This document shows positions 2,760-61,818 of a DNA stretch of 64,000 nt, piece by piece (position 1 is the stretch's first letter; each line of letters begins with the position of its first letter). The position numbers were made by a program, and so were the translations under genes. Source of the DNA: Brevibacillus composti (GTDB lineage: Bacteria > Bacillota > Bacilli > Brevibacillales > Brevibacillaceae). Location: the NCBI RefSeq assembly GCF_016406105.1, contig NZ_CP066308.1:4190501-4254500 (forward strand), in the 5' to 3' direction. The notes under the pieces are model-generated. The model was not told the DNA's origin, did not search any database, and saw nothing but the letters and a program-made list of their open reading frames with translations.

Positions 2760-3599
2760 TTAGTCGCGAGTCAGCTCAGCCACGAAGTTCGGCAGTTTGA
2801 ACGCAGCGTGGTGAAGCTCGGCATTGTAGTATTTGGTGCCAACGTCCTTGATCTTGCTCGGATCGACTTCCAGCGGATCGTACTGCTTGGACCCAATGGT
2901 AAAGCTCCACAATCCCGATGGATAGGTCGGGATGCTGCATGTATACAGGCGGGTGACCGGGAAGATAGACGAGATATCTTTAAATACGCGTTTGATCAAA
3001 TCGCGGTTGAACCAAGGGGATTCCGTCTGCGCTACCATGATGCCGTCCGGCTTCAGCGCATCGTAGATTCCTTGGTAAAAACCTTTTTCAAACAAGCCTA
3101 CTGCCGGCCCGACAGGCTCGGTCGAGTCGACCATGATGACGTCGTACTCGCCTTTGTGATCATGGATATGCTTGATGCCGTCGATCACTTGGACGTCAAC
3201 GCGCGGATTGCCGGTCAGTTCGCTGGCGATGTGTGGAAAGTATTTTTTTGAAGACTCGATGACCCCGCCGTCAATTTCAGCCAACACGGCTTTTTCTACG
3301 GAAGGATGCTTGACGATTTCGCGGATTGCGCCGCCGTCTCCCCCGCCTACGACCAGAACCTTCTTCGGGTTCGGGTGAGTGTTGAGGGCCACGTGGGAGA
3401 TCATCTCATGATAGACAAACTCATCCACGTCAGTGGTCATGACCATGCCATCGAGGACCAGCATACGGCCAAATTGTTTGGTGTTGATAATATCCAGCTG
3501 TTGAAATTCTGTTTTTTCGCTGTATAAGGTCTCGCTAATTTTTGTTGTAATACCGTGATTTTCCGTTTGTTTTTCGGTATACCACAGTTCCATGTTCAT
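2760..3599 (-). CDS. speE: Spermidine synthase
   Basis: Transfers an aminopropyl group from decarboxylated S-adenosylmethionine to putrescine. The reading frame is open to 3722, but I place the start at ATG 3599 because AAAGGAGGG lies 9-10 bases upstream of it. That gives 279 residues ([11 protein letters not shown]...), the usual length. Family motifs are [17 protein letters not shown], the nucleotide-binding [12 protein letters not shown] and the substrate loop [11 protein letters not shown]. First gene of the speE-speB operon. Confidence 0.95.
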
Positions 3600-54969: not shown

Positions 54970-56634
54970 TCAAGATCCTTGCTTCGGCAATTCAAACGAG
55001 CTTTTCAGAGAGACGATCCGGTTGAACACCAGCTTGTCCTCTCTCGTATATTTCGGGTCTACGTTAAAATAGCCATGACGGAAGAACTGGTATTTATCCT
55101 GCGGCTTGGTCGCCTTCATATCCGGCTCGACAAACCCCTGAAGCGTCTCCAGCGAGTTGGGATTCACATTGTCCAGAAAACTGGCCCCTTCCTCCTGGCC
55201 ATCCAGAATCAACGGTTCATACAAGCGGAATTCGGCCGGCAGCGCATGCTTGGCGTCTACCCAGTGAATCGTCCCCTTCACCTTGCGGCCGGTAAAGCCG
55301 CTGCCGCTTTTTGTTTCCGGATCATAGGTACAGTGGATTTCGATCACGTTTCCTTGCTCGTCTTTGATCACGTCATTGCACTTGATGAAATACGCGTGCT
55401 TCAGCCGCACTTCATTTCCCGGGAAGAGGCGGAAGTATTTGCTCGGCGGATTCTCCATGAAATCATCCTGTTCGATATAGATTTCACGGGAAAACGGTAT
55501 TTTTCTCATGCCCATTTCCGGTACTTCCGGGTTGATCTCGGCATCCAGCATCTCTACCTGATCTTCCGGATAGTTCGTGATCACGACTTTGAGCGGACGG
55601 AGCACGGCCATCGTACGCGGCGCTTTCAGCTTCAAGTCCTCGCGAATAAAATGTTCCAGCATTTTTTCATCGACGGTGCTGTTGGTTCGCGCTACCCCGA
55701 TCTCGCGGGCGAATGTCCGGATCGATTCCGGGGTGTATCCGCGCCGCCGCAGTCCGGAGATGGTCGGCATGCGGGGATCATCCCAGCCGTCCACTACCTT
55801 TTCATCCACCAGCTGTTTCAGCTTCCGTTTGCTCATCACGGTATTGGTCAGATTCAGACGGGCGAATTCATACTGTCTCGGCACCTTATCCATCTCGCAC
55901 TCGCGAATCACCCAGTCGTAGAGCGGACGGTGATCCTCGAACTCCAGGGAGCAGAGCGAATGCGTAACACCCTCGATGGCGTCCTCCAAAGGATGGGCGA
56001 AGTCATACATTGGATAGATGCACCACTTGTCTCCGGTGTTATGATGCGAGGCGTGAGCGATCCGATAGAGGACCGGGTCGCGCAGATTGATATTAGGAGA
56101 ACTCATGTCAATTTTGGCGCGCAATACTTTTTCGCCGTCCTTAAACTCGCCATTGCGCATCCGATGAAACAAGTCCAGATTCTCTTCCACCGAACGATTG
56201 CGGTAGGGGCTGTTGGTTCCCGGCTCCGTCAATGTCCCCCTGGTCTGCCGAATCTCTTCAGCCGACAGGTCGCACACATAGGCCAGTCCCTTTTTAATCA
56301 GGAGAACAGCCCGCTCGTACATCTCTTCAAAGTAGTCCGATGCGAAATACAGCCCGTCCCATTCATATCCCAGCCACTTCACGTCTTCCTTGATCGCTTC
56401 TACGTACTCCGTATCTTCCTTCAGCGGATTGGTGTCGTCAAAGCGCAGGTGGGCTCTGCCCGAAAACTCCTTTGCCAGTTCAAAATTGAGGCAAATCGCT
56501 TTGGCATGCCCGATATGCAGATACCCGTTCGGCTCTGGAGGAAAGCGTGTCACGATTTCCTTGACTCGGCCTTCTTGCAGGTCTTCCAAGACGATGTTGC
56601 GGATAAAGTTGGATGATGCCGATTTGTTTTCCAA
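54970..56634 (-). CDS. glnS: Glutaminyl-tRNA synthetase
   Basis: A 554-residue class I aminoacyl-tRNA synthetase. The HIGH motif is in [17 protein letters not shown], the KMSKS equivalent in [12 protein letters not shown], and the Gln-binding DDTNP follows the first motif. Two C-terminal anticodon-binding beta barrels complete the protein at the length of the E. coli enzyme. Most Firmicutes instead form Gln-tRNA through the GatCAB amidotransferase, so this gene was probably acquired. Single gene with promoter at 56669-56697 and its own terminator. ATG 56634. Confidence 0.95.
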
Positions 56635-56668
56635 TGAAAATCAACCTTTCCCTTCACCTTTACATTCC

Positions 56669-56697
56669 ATAATACTGATTCCATCGCGATAGTTCAA
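56669..56697 (-). promoter_or_regulatory. Sigma-A-type promoter of glnS
   Basis: On the minus strand TTGAAC (56697-56692), 17-bp spacer, TATTAT (56674-56669), about 35 bp before the start codon. Confidence 0.65.
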
Positions 56698-56899
56698 CAA
56701 AATCGCCCTCCGGCCAAGCCTACTTGCAAGTGCAAAATTTGCAAATCGTGGATTCGTTCTGTGAAAAACAGGGAATAGGTGAATAAATAGCGTGACAATC
56801 ATCCAAGGTAGTTGTGACAAATATCATTTTCTACTAAAAAACGAACCAGATTATGCCGAAGATATTTATTGAACACATGTTAACCAATACCTTTCATTA

Positions 56900-56999
56900 A
56901 TATCGATAATGGCAAACCCGGGGGAATCCGGCGACGCAAAGCTATAGGGGCTCATCTCTACTTGGTAGAAAAGCCAGCCAGCTGCCGAAGTATTGATGT
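56900..56999 (+). promoter_or_regulatory. Cyclic-di-GMP-I (GEMM-I) riboswitch
   Basis: The conserved blocks of the class-I aptamer occur in order: GGCAAACC at about 56911, a short CCGG/CCGG stem with an internal loop, then GACGCAAAGC (56933-56942). A variable helix closed by CTA/TAG follows, then CAGCCAGCTGCCG (56976-56988) as the return strand. ATCGATAATGGC and GCCGAAGTATTGAT can close the outer helix. An intrinsic terminator follows within 10 bases and the gamma-glutamyltransferase gene starts about 125 bp downstream. Confidence 0.85.
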
Positions 57000-57005
57000 A
57001 GGACG

Positions 57006-57036
57006 AGACCGATGATCCTATGTCATTGGTCTTTTT
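57006..57036 (+). terminator. Riboswitch expression-platform terminator
   Basis: AGACCGATGA (57006-57015) pairs with TCATTGGTCT (57023-57032), followed by TTTTT. It sits between the aptamer and the coding region, so read-through is the controlled step. Confidence 0.85.
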
Positions 57037-57124
57037 GTTGTGTTCAGCAAAAGGAGGTGGCTCTATCAGCAATCGTTTCCACTGTTTTTTTGCTTTATTC
57101 ATAAAGAATGGAGGATGAAGAATC

Positions 57125-58855
57125 GTGAAAAAGAGTTTCTGGCGCAAGGCTTCTGCGCTTGCTTTGACAGCTGTGATCGGATTGTCCAGCTTTTCCTCTG
57201 TAACGGAAGCGGCCAATCGTCCGACTACGATGGCCCCGAACGCGATGGTCACCACTCCGCATTATTTGGCTACGGCCGCGGCCCTCAAAACGCTGGAAGA
57301 TGGCGGAAATGCCGTAGACGCAGCGATCACCGCCGCTTCGACGCTGGCTGTCGTGTACCCTCACTACACGGCCATCGGCGGAGACAATTTCTGGCTGATT
57401 TACAACGCCAAGACGAAAGAAGTCCGGGCGTTGAACGGAAGCGGTCGTGCCGGTGAAAAAGCGACGATCGAGTATTACAAGGAAAAAGGCTATGAAAAGA
57501 TCCCGTCGCGCGGGTACGAGTCTGCGAATACCGTGCCCGGTGTCGTGTCCGGCTGGTGGGAGGCCTACCACTACGCGCAAAAGGAGCTGGCCGGAGACAG
57601 CAAGCTGAAGTGGGAGCGCTTGCTTGATCCCGCGATTGGCTACGCGGAAAACGGCTACCCGGTATCGCCCAACCAGGTGTACTGGACGAAATACGCCACT
57701 GACCCGACCGACAACGACCTGAAGAATCTGCAGCGCTTTGAAGAGTTCCGCAAGACCTTCCTGAAAGAGAACGGCGAGCCGTATCAGGCGGGCGAAGTCC
57801 TCAAGCAAAAAGATCTGGCGAACACGCTGAAAGTGATCGCCAAAAAAGGTGCGGACGGTTTCTACAAAGGCGAAATCGCCCAAAAAATCGTCAAAGACAT
57901 GGAAGCAAACGGCGGTTTGCTCACGCTGAAAGACTTTGAGACACACACATCCACGTGGGCCGATCCAATCTCCGTTGAGTACCGCGGCTTCCAGGCGTAC
58001 AATGTGCCACCCAACTCCCAAGGCATGGCCTCTTTATCTATCCTAAACATATTGAACAACATCGATCTGAGGAGCTTGGGTGAAGGAACACCGGATTACT
58101 ACCACGTGATCGTTGAAGCCACCAAACAGGCATTTGCCGACCGTGACAAGTGGCTGACCGATCCGGAATTTGTGGATATTCCTGTGGACAAGCTGTTGTC
58201 CAAAGAGCATGGAAAAGAACTGGCTGCCCGCATCGATATGAAGCAAGCGGCCAAAACAGTCGAACCGCTGGATCCAAAAGGGGACACCACCTGGCTGGCC
58301 GTCGTTGACAAATACGGAAATGCCGTTTCCATGATTCAAAGCCACTACTTCGACTGGGGTTCCGGCATCGTTGCGAAAGACACGGGCGTTCTGCTGCAAA
58401 ACCGGGGAAGCTACTTCTCCCTCGACCCGAACCATATCAACCATCTGGAGCCGGGAAAACGCACCTTCCATACCATCAATCCGGCGATGATGCTGAAAGA
58501 CAATAAACCATACCTCCTGTACGGCACACAGGGCGGTGAAGGCCAGCCACAGACACAAGCGGCTCTGGCGACGCGGATTATCGACTTCGGCTTCTCCGTC
58601 CAAGATGCGATCGAAGCGCCGAGATGGCTGCATGGACGCAACTGGGGTTCTTCCTCCAACAACTTGAAAGTGGAAAGCCGCATTCCGCAGGACGTTTTGG
58701 ATGAGTTGATCAAGCGAGGCCATCCGGTTGAAAAGCTGGAAGCGGCCTATACGGATGCGATGGGTCAATCCGGCGCGATCCTGATCGATCCTGTAACCAA
58801 CATTAAATTCGGCGGTGCCGACCCCCGCGGTGAAGGAGCCGCGATGGGCTACTAA
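57125..58855 (+). CDS. Secreted gamma-glutamyltransferase under c-di-GMP control
   Basis: A 576-residue Ntn-hydrolase precursor. A signal peptide (MKKSFWRKASALALTAVIGLSS) is followed by the large-subunit part (DGGNAVDAAITAASTLAVVYP; NTVPGVVSGWW) and the self-cleavage site GDTTWLAVVDKYGNAVS, where the first Thr of TTW should become the catalytic N-terminus of the small subunit. Such enzymes hydrolyse or transfer gamma-glutamyl groups of glutathione-like compounds or polyglutamate outside the cell. GTG 57125 follows GGAGG. The upstream c-di-GMP-I riboswitch ties it to the motile/sessile switch. Confidence 0.9.
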   Translation: MKKSFWRKASALALTAVIGLSSFSSVTEAANRPTTMAPNAMVTTPHYLATAAALKTLEDGGNAVDAAITAASTLAVVYPHYTAIGGDNFWLIYNAKTKEVRALNGSGRAGEKATIEYYKEKGYEKIPSRGYESANTVPGVVSGWWEAYHYAQKELAGDSKLKWERLLDPAIGYAENGYPVSPNQVYWTKYATDPTDNDLKNLQRFEEFRKTFLKENGEPYQAGEVLKQKDLANTLKVIAKKGADGFYKGEIAQKIVKDMEANGGLLTLKDFETHTSTWADPISVEYRGFQAYNVPPNSQGMASLSILNILNNIDLRSLGEGTPDYYHVIVEATKQAFADRDKWLTDPEFVDIPVDKLLSKEHGKELAARIDMKQAAKTVEPLDPKGDTTWLAVVDKYGNAVSMIQSHYFDWGSGIVAKDTGVLLQNRGSYFSLDPNHINHLEPGKRTFHTINPAMMLKDNKPYLLYGTQGGEGQPQTQAALATRIIDFGFSVQDAIEAPRWLHGRNWGSSSNNLKVESRIPQDVLDELIKRGHPVEKLEAAYTDAMGQSGAILIDPVTNIKFGGADPRGEGAAMGY

Positions 58856-58866
58856 TACTGTCAGTC

Positions 58867-58903
58867 ATCAGACTGCTGGGCAAAAGGCTCAGCAGTCTGA
58901 TTT
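58867..58903 (+). terminator. Hairpin between ggt and the chemoreceptor gene
   Basis: ATCAGACTGCTGGGC pairs with GCTCAGCAGTCTGAT with one small bulge. Only three T follow, so some read-through into the chemoreceptor gene 33 bp on is likely. Confidence 0.65.
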
Positions 58904-58935
58904 CCTAGCATGAATCACGAAAGGATGCTGCATCC

Positions 58936-60930
58936 ATGCGCCTGTTCAGCAAGCTTCGCAATAAGCTCGTCATCTGGTTTCTGCTTTTGGCTGTCGTACC
59001 CCTGATCATCAACTCTTACCTGGTCCTGACTGAGAGCACCCAGATTCTCATTGAGAAACAAAAGGAATCAATGGTCGACTTGACGAAGTCCACCGCCCAG
59101 GGAATGGATCAGTGGTTAGACAGAAGACTGACGGAAGTGACGGTACTGGCACGTTCTTCGGACATTCAGTCTACAGATGCCGAGGCAAAAAACGATTTTA
59201 TCCGCCGATTTACCAAAGAACTCAAAATTTTTGACGGCAATACCTTTATCTCCCCTGACGGGATCGTCACAGCGGACACCTTCGAAGGCAGTCTAGGAAT
59301 CAACCTCGGGGAGCGTCCGTTTTTCAAGCTGGGAATGGAGGGCAAATCCAGCTTTTCTGACATGCTGATCGCAAAAACGACGGGCAATCGCTCGATTGTC
59401 GTCGCCTCCCCTGTCATTAACAAGGAAGGGCAAAAGCTTGGGGTGTTAACGGGACTTGTCAATGTAGATTCCTTCACATCCACCTTCCTGCAAAATTTGA
59501 ACCTTGGTGAAGACGGCTATCCGATACTCGTGGACAACAAAGGGCTGATCCAGGTACACCCCAATCCAGAACTGATCGGCAAAAGCATTGAAGAAGCTGC
59601 ATTGCCAGAAGGGTTGACCACCATCCTGAAGACCGGGGCAGCGGAATCAGGATCCTCGACTTATCAGGACGGCGGAAAAGAATACGTCGTTACCTTCTCT
59701 TCGATTCCCAGTACGAATTACAGTCTATTCTTCCATATGCCCAGCGAGCAAATTACCTCGCAGGTATGGGCCATCACGAGGTATATCATCATCCTGGTAT
59801 GTGTGGTTACCGCCATCGTGCTAGCAGCAGCCTTCTTTGTCTCCCGTCAAATCAGCCGCCCGATTGTGGAAGTGGCTTCCGTGACCGGCCGTATCGCGGA
59901 TGGCGATCTGGCAGTAGACCCATTGAAGATCAGAAGCAGAGACGAAGTCGGTCGACTCTCAGAATCCGTCAACCTCATGGTGGCGAACTTGCACGACATC
60001 ATCCAAAAAGTGAATACATCTGCGGAAGAACTGGCCGCCTCGGCGGAAGAGCTGTCTGCAAACGCAGAGGAGACCAGCAAGGCGACCGAACAAATCGCTT
60101 CCTCCATCCAAGAAGTCGCCTACGGCGCGGAGCAGCAGGTGCAGAGCGTATCAGAGAGCGTCAGCACCATCAACGAAGTGTCCAAGGGCATCCAAAACAT
60201 CGCCGCCAACGCTCAACACGCGGCAGAGTCTGCCATGACAGCTTCGCAAATTGCGGCTCACGGCAACCAGGCAATTGAAACGGTCATGCATCAGATGGAA
60301 CTGATCCATGCTACCGTGAACGATATCGCTACCATCGTCAAACGACTGGGAGACAGCTCTCAGGAAATTGGCCAAATCGTCCAAGTCATTACCGATATTG
60401 CCCAACAGACCAATCTGCTTTCGCTCAATGCGGCGATCGAAGCCGCGAGGGCGGGCGAACATGGCCGCGGCTTCGCCGTAGTAGCCGATGAAGTGCGCAA
60501 GCTGGCTGAGCAATCGGCAAGCTCCGCCCAACAAATCGAGCAGCTGATCGCCTCGATCCAGAACGAGTCGCATCAGGCTGTCGATTCGATGGAAAAAGGC
60601 ACGCGAGAAGTGTCCCTGGGCATCGAGGTCGTAAACGAAGCCGGTAAATCTTTTGTGCAGATACGCGATTCTGTCTCGCAGGTGGCCAGCCAGATTCAGG
60701 AGGTTCAGGCCTATTCCCAGCTGATGACCAAAGATACCGAACAAGTCGTCCAGCTGATTGGACAGATCTCTGCGATTGCGGAAAACTCGGCGGATGGCAC
60801 GCAAAATGTGTCCGCGGCGACAGAAGAGCAGCTGGCTGCTATCCAGCAGGTCACCTCGTCGGCGGAGTCCTTGGCAAAAGTGGCCGAGGATTTGCAAGAA
60901 CAAGTGCGAAAGTTTGTCCTCTACCGGTAG
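58936..60930 (+). CDS. Methyl-accepting chemotaxis protein with dCache sensor
   Basis: A 664-residue chemoreceptor. A membrane helix ([19 protein letters not shown]) is followed by a double-Cache extracytoplasmic sensor (about 35-275, with [16 protein letters not shown] and [17 protein letters not shown]), a second membrane helix (about 283-303), a HAMP domain ([22 protein letters not shown]) and a long cytoplasmic coiled coil. The CheA-contact tip is [21 protein letters not shown]. Small-molecule ligands such as amino acids are usual for dCache sensors. It may share transcripts with the c-di-GMP-controlled ggt gene upstream. Confidence 0.92.
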
Positions 60931-60994
60931 ATGCGCCTCCCGTGCATCCCGCACGCAGCAGTGACAAAGCGCTCCCTTTGCGTATACAGGAAAC

Positions 60995-61038
60995 AGCCCC
61001 CGAAGCGAGATGGGTCACTTCGGGGGCTCGTTTTTTTT
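60995..61038 (+). terminator. Intrinsic terminator of the chemoreceptor gene
   Basis: AGCCCCCGAAG (60995-61005) pairs with CTTCGGGGGCT (61018-61028), followed by CG and eight T. Confidence 0.95.
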
Positions 61039-61046
61039 CGACTGGC

Positions 61047-61086
61047 AAAAAAAAGCTGATGCCCCTCGACTTGCGGGCATCAGCTT
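61047..61086 (-). terminator. Intrinsic terminator of the ugp-type operon
   Basis: On the minus strand AAGCTGATGCCC pairs with GGGCATCAGCTT, followed by a run of T. It lies 12 bp past the glycerophosphodiesterase stop codon, back to back with the chemoreceptor terminator. Confidence 0.92.
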
Positions 61087-61098
61087 GGCACCCTACTG

Positions 61099-61818
61099 CT
61101 AGCAAATGGCCAGCATGCGATCCGGATGATTGGTGCAGATTTGCACATGTGGATATGTCTTTACGATTTGCTGAATCGCTTGTGGATCATCTACTGTCCA
61201 GGCGATTACCTCGATCCCCTGTTCAAAGGCAGCGTTGACCAACTCCTCGGTCAGATACGGATAGGCGATGGACAGGACAGTGGCTCCTGCCTCGCGAAGC
61301 TGCTCCAGCATCATAACCGGATTTGCGCAGACAATCAGGCCGCATCTCACTTCGGCGTCGAGGCTCCGGAATCGGCGGATTTCCTCATGGTCAAAAGAGG
61401 TGACATAGACGTCCCGCTTCATATCATGCCGCTCCAGCAGAGCCAGGACCGTCTCGGACAGGCCCGGATGCATCCCGGGGGCCGTCTTCAGTTCGATGTT
61501 CAGCAGGCAGCGTCCCTTGACTGCCTGCAGCACTTCCTCCAGGGAGGGAATCCGTTCACCGGCATACCGCTCGCCAAACCAGCGTCCAGCATCCAGGGTG
61601 CGCAATTCTTCATAGGTGAATGCAGAAACCAACCCGTTGCCGTTTGTCGTTCGCTCCAGCGTGAAGTCATGGAGCAGCACCGGTACGCCGTCTTTGGACA
61701 GCTGCACATCGATCTCAATCGCGCCAATCGCCGGTTCTGCCAGCGCCAATCGGATGGCGGTCATCGTGTTTTCCGGCGCCTTTCCCGACCAGCCGCGGTG
61801 TGCCATACAGATGTTCAT
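61099..61818 (-). CDS. Glycerophosphodiester phosphodiesterase
   Basis: A 239-residue TIM-barrel enzyme that releases glycerol-3-phosphate from deacylated phospholipids. The metal and catalytic residues are in MAHRGWSGKAPENT, IEIDVQLSKDGVPVLLHD and LNIELKT; VIAWTVDD closes the barrel. No signal peptide, so it acts in the cytosol on imported glycerophosphodiesters. It follows the ABC binding-protein gene by 44 bp, an arrangement like ugpB-ugpQ. ATG 61818 behind GGAGGG. Confidence 0.93.
   Translation of the reverse strand: MNICMAHRGWSGKAPENTMTAIRLALAEPAIGAIEIDVQLSKDGVPVLLHDFTLERTTNGNGLVSAFTYEELRTLDAGRWFGERYAGERIPSLEEVLQAVKGRCLLNIELKTAPGMHPGLSETVLALLERHDMKRDVYVTSFDHEEIRRFRSLDAEVRCGLIVCANPVMMLEQLREAGATVLSIAYPYLTEELVNAAFEQGIEVIAWTVDDPQAIQQIVKTYPHVQICTNHPDRMLAIC

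Follow-up and report, generated by a model that had tools for sequence, protein, structure and literature searches.

We describe a cyclic di-GMP class I (c-di-GMP-I) riboswitch and the two genes that follow it in a window of 64,000 nucleotides, positions 4190501-4254500 of contig C1 in a 4.47-Mb Brevibacillus genome. The first gene encodes an exported member of the gamma-glutamyltransferase (GGT) family, the second a methyl-accepting chemotaxis protein (MCP). We lean, by a little, towards the interpretation that the riboswitch acts at the level of transcription, as an OFF switch, and that it governs an operon encoding an exported amidohydrolase of the GGT family together with a Cache chemoreceptor. 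What is unusual is the fixed use of the riboswitch on an exported, probably non-canonical GGT-family hydrolase that is tied to a chemoreceptor, and the recurrence of this unit with another receptor type. The parts of the locus, in window coordinates, are as follows.

56901-56989, + strand: c-di-GMP-I riboswitch aptamer (RF01051), cmscan score 64.9 bits, full model.
56895-56902, + strand: 5' strand of helix P1, CAUUAAUA, partner of 56991-56998; all 8 pairs are standard in each of the 19 aligned leaders, and 6 do not vary.
56991-56998, + strand: 3' strand of P1, UAUUGAUG; its final five bases are common to the antiterminator.
56994-57003, + strand: predicted antiterminator 5' arm, UGAUGUAGGA; all 10 pairs are standard in each of the 19 leaders, and the nascent minimum free energy (MFE) structure contains the helix in 19 of 19.
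57016-57025, + strand: predicted antiterminator 3' arm, UCCUAUGUCA, partly overlapping the terminator.
57005-57036, + strand: intrinsic terminator of 12 base pairs with a loop of 5 and a T-tract; fold z -4.0, with pairing in 99.1% of cells across the 19 leaders.
57125-58855, + strand: exported N-terminal nucleophile (Ntn) hydrolase of the GGT family (PF01019) that lacks the canonical GGT pocket; 576 amino acids, GTG start.
58867-58901, + strand: intergenic hairpin of 15 base pairs without a proper T-tract, z -4.5.
58936-60930, + strand: MCP of dCache_1-HAMP-MCPsignal architecture, 664 amino acids, 80 bp past the enzyme stop.
60995-61038, + strand: strong hairpin followed by eight T (z -4.8), the likely end of the operon; a consensus scan gave its stem on the - strand only.

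The riboswitch belongs to a known class, of which it is an ordinary example. A preliminary description of this DNA had proposed a class-I c-di-GMP riboswitch with three aptamer blocks and an intrinsic terminator just after it, and all of this is borne out. The covariance search covers the complete model (1-87) at 64.9 bits against a gathering threshold of 35 (E-value 2e-10), an identification at the level of scoring; the three blocks are all present in the order described, and the terminator follows immediately. No second Rfam match exceeds its threshold within the 64 kb. Model position 11 of the window aptamer is a G in the RF01051 alignment. We take this position to be G20, the ligand contact that separates the c-di-GMP from the cyclic GMP-AMP (cGAMP) types; cGAMP-type GEMM-I RNAs have an A there. 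The window aptamer would be expected to bind c-di-GMP. The same genome has a second RF01051 riboswitch (75.3 bits), which precedes an MCP gene and a gene for an HD-GYP-like protein, named by eye (L014:3534-6265, - strand).

The leader has the layout of a kinetic OFF switch. An alignment of 19 Brevibacillus leaders contains three mutually exclusive helices, P1, the antiterminator and the terminator, with standard pairing in 100%, 100% and 99.1% of cells, respectively. The antiterminator takes five bases of the P1 3' strand, and P1 has no bases in common with the terminator. When the RNA is ended at the antiterminator 3' arm, the antiterminator is found in the predicted MFE structure of all 19 leaders (with all 10 pairs in 18 of them and 9 in that of the window), where it exceeds P1 in stability by 0.8 to 8.7 kcal/mol. 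Full-length leaders favour P1 together with the terminator over the antiterminator state in 18 of 19 cases, the two being equal in the other one, and the free MFE lies at most 0.1 kcal/mol from the P1-plus-terminator state in 11 of 19. None of 200 shuffles is as stable as the terminator fold, and one terminator pair has changes on both sides across the 19 leaders. A terminator consensus scan is weak as evidence: it finds 8 terminator-like sites in 56600-61100, where shuffles average 5.5 (standard deviation 2.5). Since P1, the antiterminator and the terminator are all kept in the 19 leaders, we read the leader as an OFF switch, and the enzyme-receptor unit should therefore be on at low c-di-GMP. 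OFF control would require co-transcriptional timing, because the ligand-free full-length RNA already favours the terminator state.

The arrangement is conserved within Brevibacillus. In a survey of 26 genomes of the genus, RF01051 is present in 25, at 77 places in total (G014 has none), and an ortholog of the enzyme at at least 86% identity in 19. The B. borstelensis enzyme is 91% identical to that of the window, and other close relatives include B. thermoruber and B. formosus. In every genome with the ortholog (19/19) the aptamer lies just 5' of the enzyme gene and an ortholog of the MCP just 3' of it. The riboswitch is also present in ten of ten named Brevibacillus loci, which seem to come largely from the same genomes as the 26. 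A comparison of positions in the seven genomes without the ortholog found no riboswitch within 40 kb of any GGT-family match. Other c-di-GMP-I riboswitches of the genus were surveyed at 30 loci (L038 is unplaced), and their longest 3' open reading frames include an aldehyde dehydrogenase, a transglutaminase-like protein and dCache_1 receptors (L030:1672-3084, L039:1604-2404, L016:1632-3101).

The pairing of enzyme and receptor recurs outside the genus. Twenty outside loci were drawn from 200 matching genomes of 398, comprising the first ten non-genus matches and ten spanning the range of identity. The four closest enzymes (69-73% identity; genomes G036, G111, G026 and G223) belong to four genera in four families, one of which is Brevibacillus's own. 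Each of the four carries a hydrophobic stretch at its N-terminus and has, immediately upstream in the same orientation, a gene for an MCP with an sCache_2 sensor; neither feature occurs at the remaining 16 outside loci. Export was called by the hydropathy score alone, which among these 39 loci is at least 1.74 or at most 0.96, and an adjacent same-strand MCP is found in 23 of 23 exported and 0 of 16 other loci. With 12 more distant paralogs added, which were examined on shorter stretches (one canonical GGT and 11 with about 40% identity), there are 51 GGT-family loci, 19 of them from Brevibacillus; an adjacent MCP is present at 23 of the 24 exported and at none of the 27 other loci. None of the 12 has an adjacent MCP within its stretch; apart from the canonical GGT their hydropathy reaches up to 1.31. 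The lone exported enzyme without an adjacent MCP is the canonical GGT paralog of the window's own genome.

In the tree, the exported enzymes that have receptors make up a single clade (support 96/94; 12 of the 23 were included, 8 from Brevibacillus and 4 from outside), and in it the forms with the receptor upstream branch off outside Brevibacillus. The simplest history would therefore be an old enzyme-receptor pair whose receptor was exchanged later. The preliminary description had treated enzyme and chemoreceptor as one unit, and this stands: the order is kept in 19 of 19 genomes of the genus and the pairing recurs in four other genera. As it recurs there with another receptor and another gene order, it is probably a real working unit. 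These counts are not independent, because the 19 genomes are of one genus, the exported enzymes are one clade and few lineages are involved. Searches at E-values up to 1e-200 gave no additional homolog in the families of G036, G111 and G026 or the orders of G036 and G111, and in Brevibacillus's family only G223 outside the genus.

RF01051 precedes the MCP gene in two of the four outside operons, those of G036 (68.0 bits) and G111 (52.0 bits). A first riboswitch scan of 12 outside loci with about 1.5 kb of flank had given none. That scan was misleading because the receptor gene stands between the riboswitch and the enzyme; longer stretches gave the two of four. L013 (Proteobacteria, 31%) was left out of the riboswitch scanning. 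Several neighbours of these homologs were also seen. In G026 the MCP-enzyme pair adjoins fliS-, fliD- and flaG-like genes, recognised by eye (L148:175-2736, - strand), and in G223 two tandem T-box leaders lie downstream of the pair (L105:3271-3950, - strand). In two genomes a GGDEF diguanylate cyclase gene lies about 0.9-1.3 kb beyond a non-exported enzyme homolog, in the same orientation (L111:4703-6193, L112:1646-3112), and is possibly another link to c-di-GMP.

The enzyme was described beforehand as an exported gamma-glutamyltransferase. Membership of the GGT family and an export-like N-terminus are both upheld: the protein exceeds the family cut-offs (PF01019, 512.1 bits; TIGR00066, 478 against 357.85), and about residues 1-30 resemble a signal peptide by eye, with a hydropathy score of 2.15. 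The assigned function is not supported, the six canonical pocket residues being replaced. At the positions of E. coli GGT R114, N411, Q430, D433, S462 and S463 the window enzyme has S, Y, R, Y, H and T, so that none of the six canonical gamma-glutamyl-binding residues is kept, whereas the other GGT paralog of the genome (L150) has R, E, E, D, S and S, the canonical Bacillus set. The nucleophile Thr is retained in the window enzyme; a pattern for it matched 50 of 51 proteins, and the Thr of L073 was seen in its sequence. The E. coli GGT row in the residue table is an Ala mutant at the nucleophile, the column labelled T391 there gives the residue that follows it, and the nucleophile Thr was checked separately.

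In a tree that includes 8 of the 19 enzymes from Brevibacillus, 4 of the 11 paralogs at about 40% identity and the 4 exported outside rows, the window enzyme is separated from E. coli GGT and L150 at 100/100. It falls with 5hft in an 18-row group at 99/97, in which the nearest join of 5hft has 84/76; the exact place of 5hft is unsure because its branch is long. The small subunit alone has 5hft as its best solved match (188.7 bits), followed by 2nlz (150.7) and E. coli GGT (73.3). With the large subunit alone 5hft leads slightly (217.7), followed by a canonical GGT chain (202.1) and E. coli GGT (177.8). For the whole protein the top match, at 361.6 bits, is 2nlz, deposited as a cephalosporin acylase. 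We take 5hft to be the amidohydrolase HpxW of Klebsiella, its database name being only gamma-glutamyltranspeptidase. HpxW is an oxamate amidohydrolase to which YwrD is very similar, according to the available text of PMC5270733. The 'extremophile' GGTs treated in the available part of PMC8062742 carry Ser and His-Thr at the sites discussed here and are given as capable of hydrolysis only, with low activity figures. The window enzyme is probably a non-canonical GGT-family hydrolase; gamma-glutamyl hydrolysis by it is possible, yet its residues do not indicate it.

The receptor was compared with dCache_1 domains of characterised ligand. A separate alignment of receptor sensors has 15 of the 19 from Brevibacillus and that of G021, a genome that has the MCP without the enzyme. 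The amino-acid motif dCache_1AA, as given in the available parts of the literature, is R126, W128, Y144 and D173 in PctA numbering. In alignments read by eye, the window receptor keeps the Arg and has F, L and L in place of W128, Y144 and D173. This Arg, which lies in an R[PQ]F stretch, is conserved in 19 of 19 orthologs and in the G021 receptor. The purine motif dCache_1PU of McpH consists of Y121, R129, W140, F167 and D169, of which W140, F167 and D169 were compared through PctA equivalences; at these three the window receptor has F, V and A and does not fit the motif. The preliminary description suggested that the unit releases gamma-glutamyl-derived amino acids and senses them. This is not supported, because the enzyme is without the canonical pocket and the receptor is without the amino-acid motif.

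When the distal module of the sensor was searched alone at E-values up to 1, the only solved matches were two KinD sequences (8.3e-5 and 5.8e-4) and 3by9 (0.26). Both KinD matches differ from the receptor at the key Arg. KinD, we presume, binds pyruvate, and we take 3by9 to be DctB with succinate. The predicted sensor structure was not used as evidence of the ligand: its mean predicted local distance difference test score (pLDDT) is 70.3, falling to about 44-60 in the distal ligand module, and its matches are to dCache domains in general.

The four receptors outside the genus are of the sCache_2 type, and the two that were searched match 4k08, 2qhk, 5g4y and 4exo. In PscD the carboxylate of the ligand is held by Tyr, His, Lys and Tyr143, as reported in the available text of PMC5062169. 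The Tyr, His and Lys are kept in four of four of these receptors (a pattern matched two, and the remaining two were read by eye), and the fourth contact, Tyr143, is Phe. Five sCache_2 MCP domains bind L-lactate or pyruvate, according to the part of PMC12415202 available. Both receptor types thus appear, from their residues and nearest relatives, to lean towards small carboxylates, the kind of product expected of an amidohydrolase.

The region between the two genes is much as first described, with the chemoreceptor gene 80 bp past the enzyme behind a hairpin with a poor T-tract. On inspection, each of the 19 loci of Brevibacillus has a comparable hairpin behind the stop codon of the enzyme gene. 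No sigma-70-type match occurs in the 80-bp gap, the scan being limited to this promoter type; in our model enzyme and receptor would be co-transcribed across it. Ahead of the leader the same scan gave no match on the + strand; over 56600-61100 it gave 3 matches, where shuffles average 2.6. A sigma-D-like TAAA-N16-GCCGAAGA with three mismatches was rejected as the window promoter, being missing at the equivalent site in 18 relatives. The motif TTTACC-N17-TATATT sits 117-144 nt ahead of the GACGCAAAG block in 14 of the 18 relatives; the window does not have it.

We propose the following model. At high c-di-GMP the ligand would keep P1 closed, no antiterminator would form, the terminator at 57005-57036 would fold and the operon would be off. 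At low c-di-GMP the antiterminator would take the P1 3' strand, and transcription would run into the enzyme gene, past the hairpin that has no T-tract, and on to the receptor gene. Motile cells would then secrete a hydrolase acting on an extracellular amide. The receptor would be tuned to the same chemistry, most likely to a small carboxylate, and the cells would climb towards sources that their own enzyme opens. The sequence itself shows the aptamer, the three competing helices, the export signal and the gene order with its conservation and recurrence, while ligand binding, the direction of control, co-transcription, the substrate of the enzyme, the ligand of the receptor and the tie between these two are inferred. 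A more specific version, which we offer tentatively and think rather doubtful as a whole, is a c-di-GMP-gated cassette in which an exported HpxW-type amidohydrolase makes, from an extracellular amide, a small carboxylate that the receptor encoded beside it senses as an attractant; it would have survived the swap from an upstream sCache_2 to a downstream dCache_1 receptor because selection was for the chemistry and not for the receptor gene.

A number of observations weigh against this model. P1 plus terminator is not the lowest-energy fold in 8 of the 19 full leaders, and the margin by which the whole leader is more stable than its shuffles is only moderate (z -1.93, with 8 of 200 shuffles reaching its stability). 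In a tail-shuffle control on 3 of the 19 leaders, shuffled tails engaged the P1 3' strand equally well in 12 (window), 62 (L078) and 13 (L092) of 500. Eight of ten antiterminator pairs are invariant and none has changed on both sides, a pattern of conservation and not of covariation; covariation was dropped as proof of the antiterminator, which for this reason rests on conservation and layout. No promoter was identified ahead of the window leader by the motif comparison with relatives or the sigma-70 scan, and the strong hairpin in the gap might reduce readthrough into the MCP gene. Outside the genus, the 52-bit match of G111 (L147:3640-3726) has a U at the key G, and its ligand may differ from c-di-GMP. 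No recognised riboswitch was found upstream of the G223 operon. The G026 leader has diverged and scores as no riboswitch, RF01051 being absent even at E-values up to 5; it aligns to that of G111 (L148, around 3086-3180; 66 of 87 aptamer positions identical) and is a candidate for a decayed aptamer or one with an altered ligand. The remaining points bear on particular alternatives.

That the riboswitch controls the enzyme only, with the MCP on its own promoter and the gap hairpin ending or processing the first transcript, is on the unlikely side. The hairpin is strong and conserved, and G021 keeps the MCP alone (sensor 72% identity) at the same place, without riboswitch or enzyme and flanked, by eye, by the same glutaminyl-tRNA synthetase gene and glycerophosphodiesterase-like gene as in the window; the MCP can therefore be expressed alone. 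Yet the hairpin lacks a T-tract, the gap has no match in the scan for sigma-70-type promoters, the gene order is kept 19/19, and both outside RF01051 operons place the riboswitch before the MCP, with the MCP as first gene. The aptamer would be an ON switch, or bind without switching, only with rather low probability. The aptamer type includes ON as well as OFF switches, according to the available text of PMC9262584, and the full-length RNA favours the terminator state even without ligand, but P1 overlaps the antiterminator by five bases and the terminator by none, which is the layout of an OFF switch, and the core and both platform helices are conserved across the 19 genomes.

An unlikely alternative for the function is a true gamma-glutamyl hydrolase or transferase that frees glutamate or other amino acids, combined with an amino-acid receptor. 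The family models are matched, and the 'extremophile' GGTs that share the Ser and His-Thr replacements (GtGGT-type enzymes) keep a weak gamma-glutamyl hydrolase activity in the available part of PMC8062742. The best solved matches of the whole sensor are McpH, a purine receptor (7.9e-8, in the proximal part), CtaA, PctC and PctA, and the Foldseek list for the weak model, made up of dCache domains in general, is headed by amino-acid receptors. Against this stand the six replaced pocket residues, in a genome whose paralog L150 keeps them in their canonical Bacillus form, and a receptor without W128, Y144 and D173. We likewise give little credence to a mere accident of neighbourhood, in which riboswitch, enzyme and receptor were co-inherited with no joint role: the lack of independence among the counts would suit it, as would the GEMM-I riboswitches that precede other receptors in the genus, but receptor type and side changed between lineages while the pairing stayed, and the 16 non-exported closer homologs have no adjacent MCP. 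The OFF-switch operon of hydrolase and chemoreceptor remains the reading we prefer.

If this is true, c-di-GMP would set not just whether a cell swims but also the extracellular chemistry that it performs and follows while swimming. A branch of secreted GGT-family proteins that is annotated as gamma-glutamyltransferase on family grounds alone would gain a role. The exchange of the receptor with the pairing kept would be a genetic lead to the substrate of the enzyme, and the ligand of the receptor and the product of the enzyme would merge into one testable question.

The open-access literature, to which our search was confined, gave no description of a c-di-GMP riboswitch with a gamma-glutamyltransferase or glutamyltranspeptidase, or of a c-di-GMP riboswitch in Brevibacillus, and nothing relevant on chemoreceptor-enzyme clusters. 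The window leader shares the full aptamer, the conserved core and the intrinsic-terminator platform with the RF01051 class, and differs in that it precedes an exported GGT-family enzyme. The PctA and McpH receptors are of the dCache_1 type, and the window MCP, in whose orthologs the Arg of the R[PQ]F stretch is kept, shares the dCache_1-HAMP-MCP architecture, but other mappable residues of the amino-acid and purine motifs are not found in it; among carboxylate Cache sensors, KinD is nearest to its distal module by sequence.

Canonical secreted GGTs of E. coli and B. subtilis belong to the same Ntn-hydrolase family as the window enzyme and share the first Thr of the small subunit and the Gly-Gly pair, whereas the gamma-glutamyl-binding residues are replaced in the window enzyme, which lies in a separate clade at 100/100. 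Another close known system is HpxW, as we take 5hft to be; 5hft has the same pocket residues S, S, Y, R, H, T, G and G and is the best solved match of each subunit alone, and this pocket signature is for the most part found in 2nlz too. The position of D433 is Tyr in the window enzyme, Ala in 5hft and Asn in 2nlz and neighbouring rows; we take these to be probably YwrD-like. YwrD of B. subtilis, described as HpxW-like, is intracellular and has no assigned role in the available part of PMC8062742, whereas the window enzyme is exported. From HpxW too the window enzyme differs in being exported and paired with a chemoreceptor.

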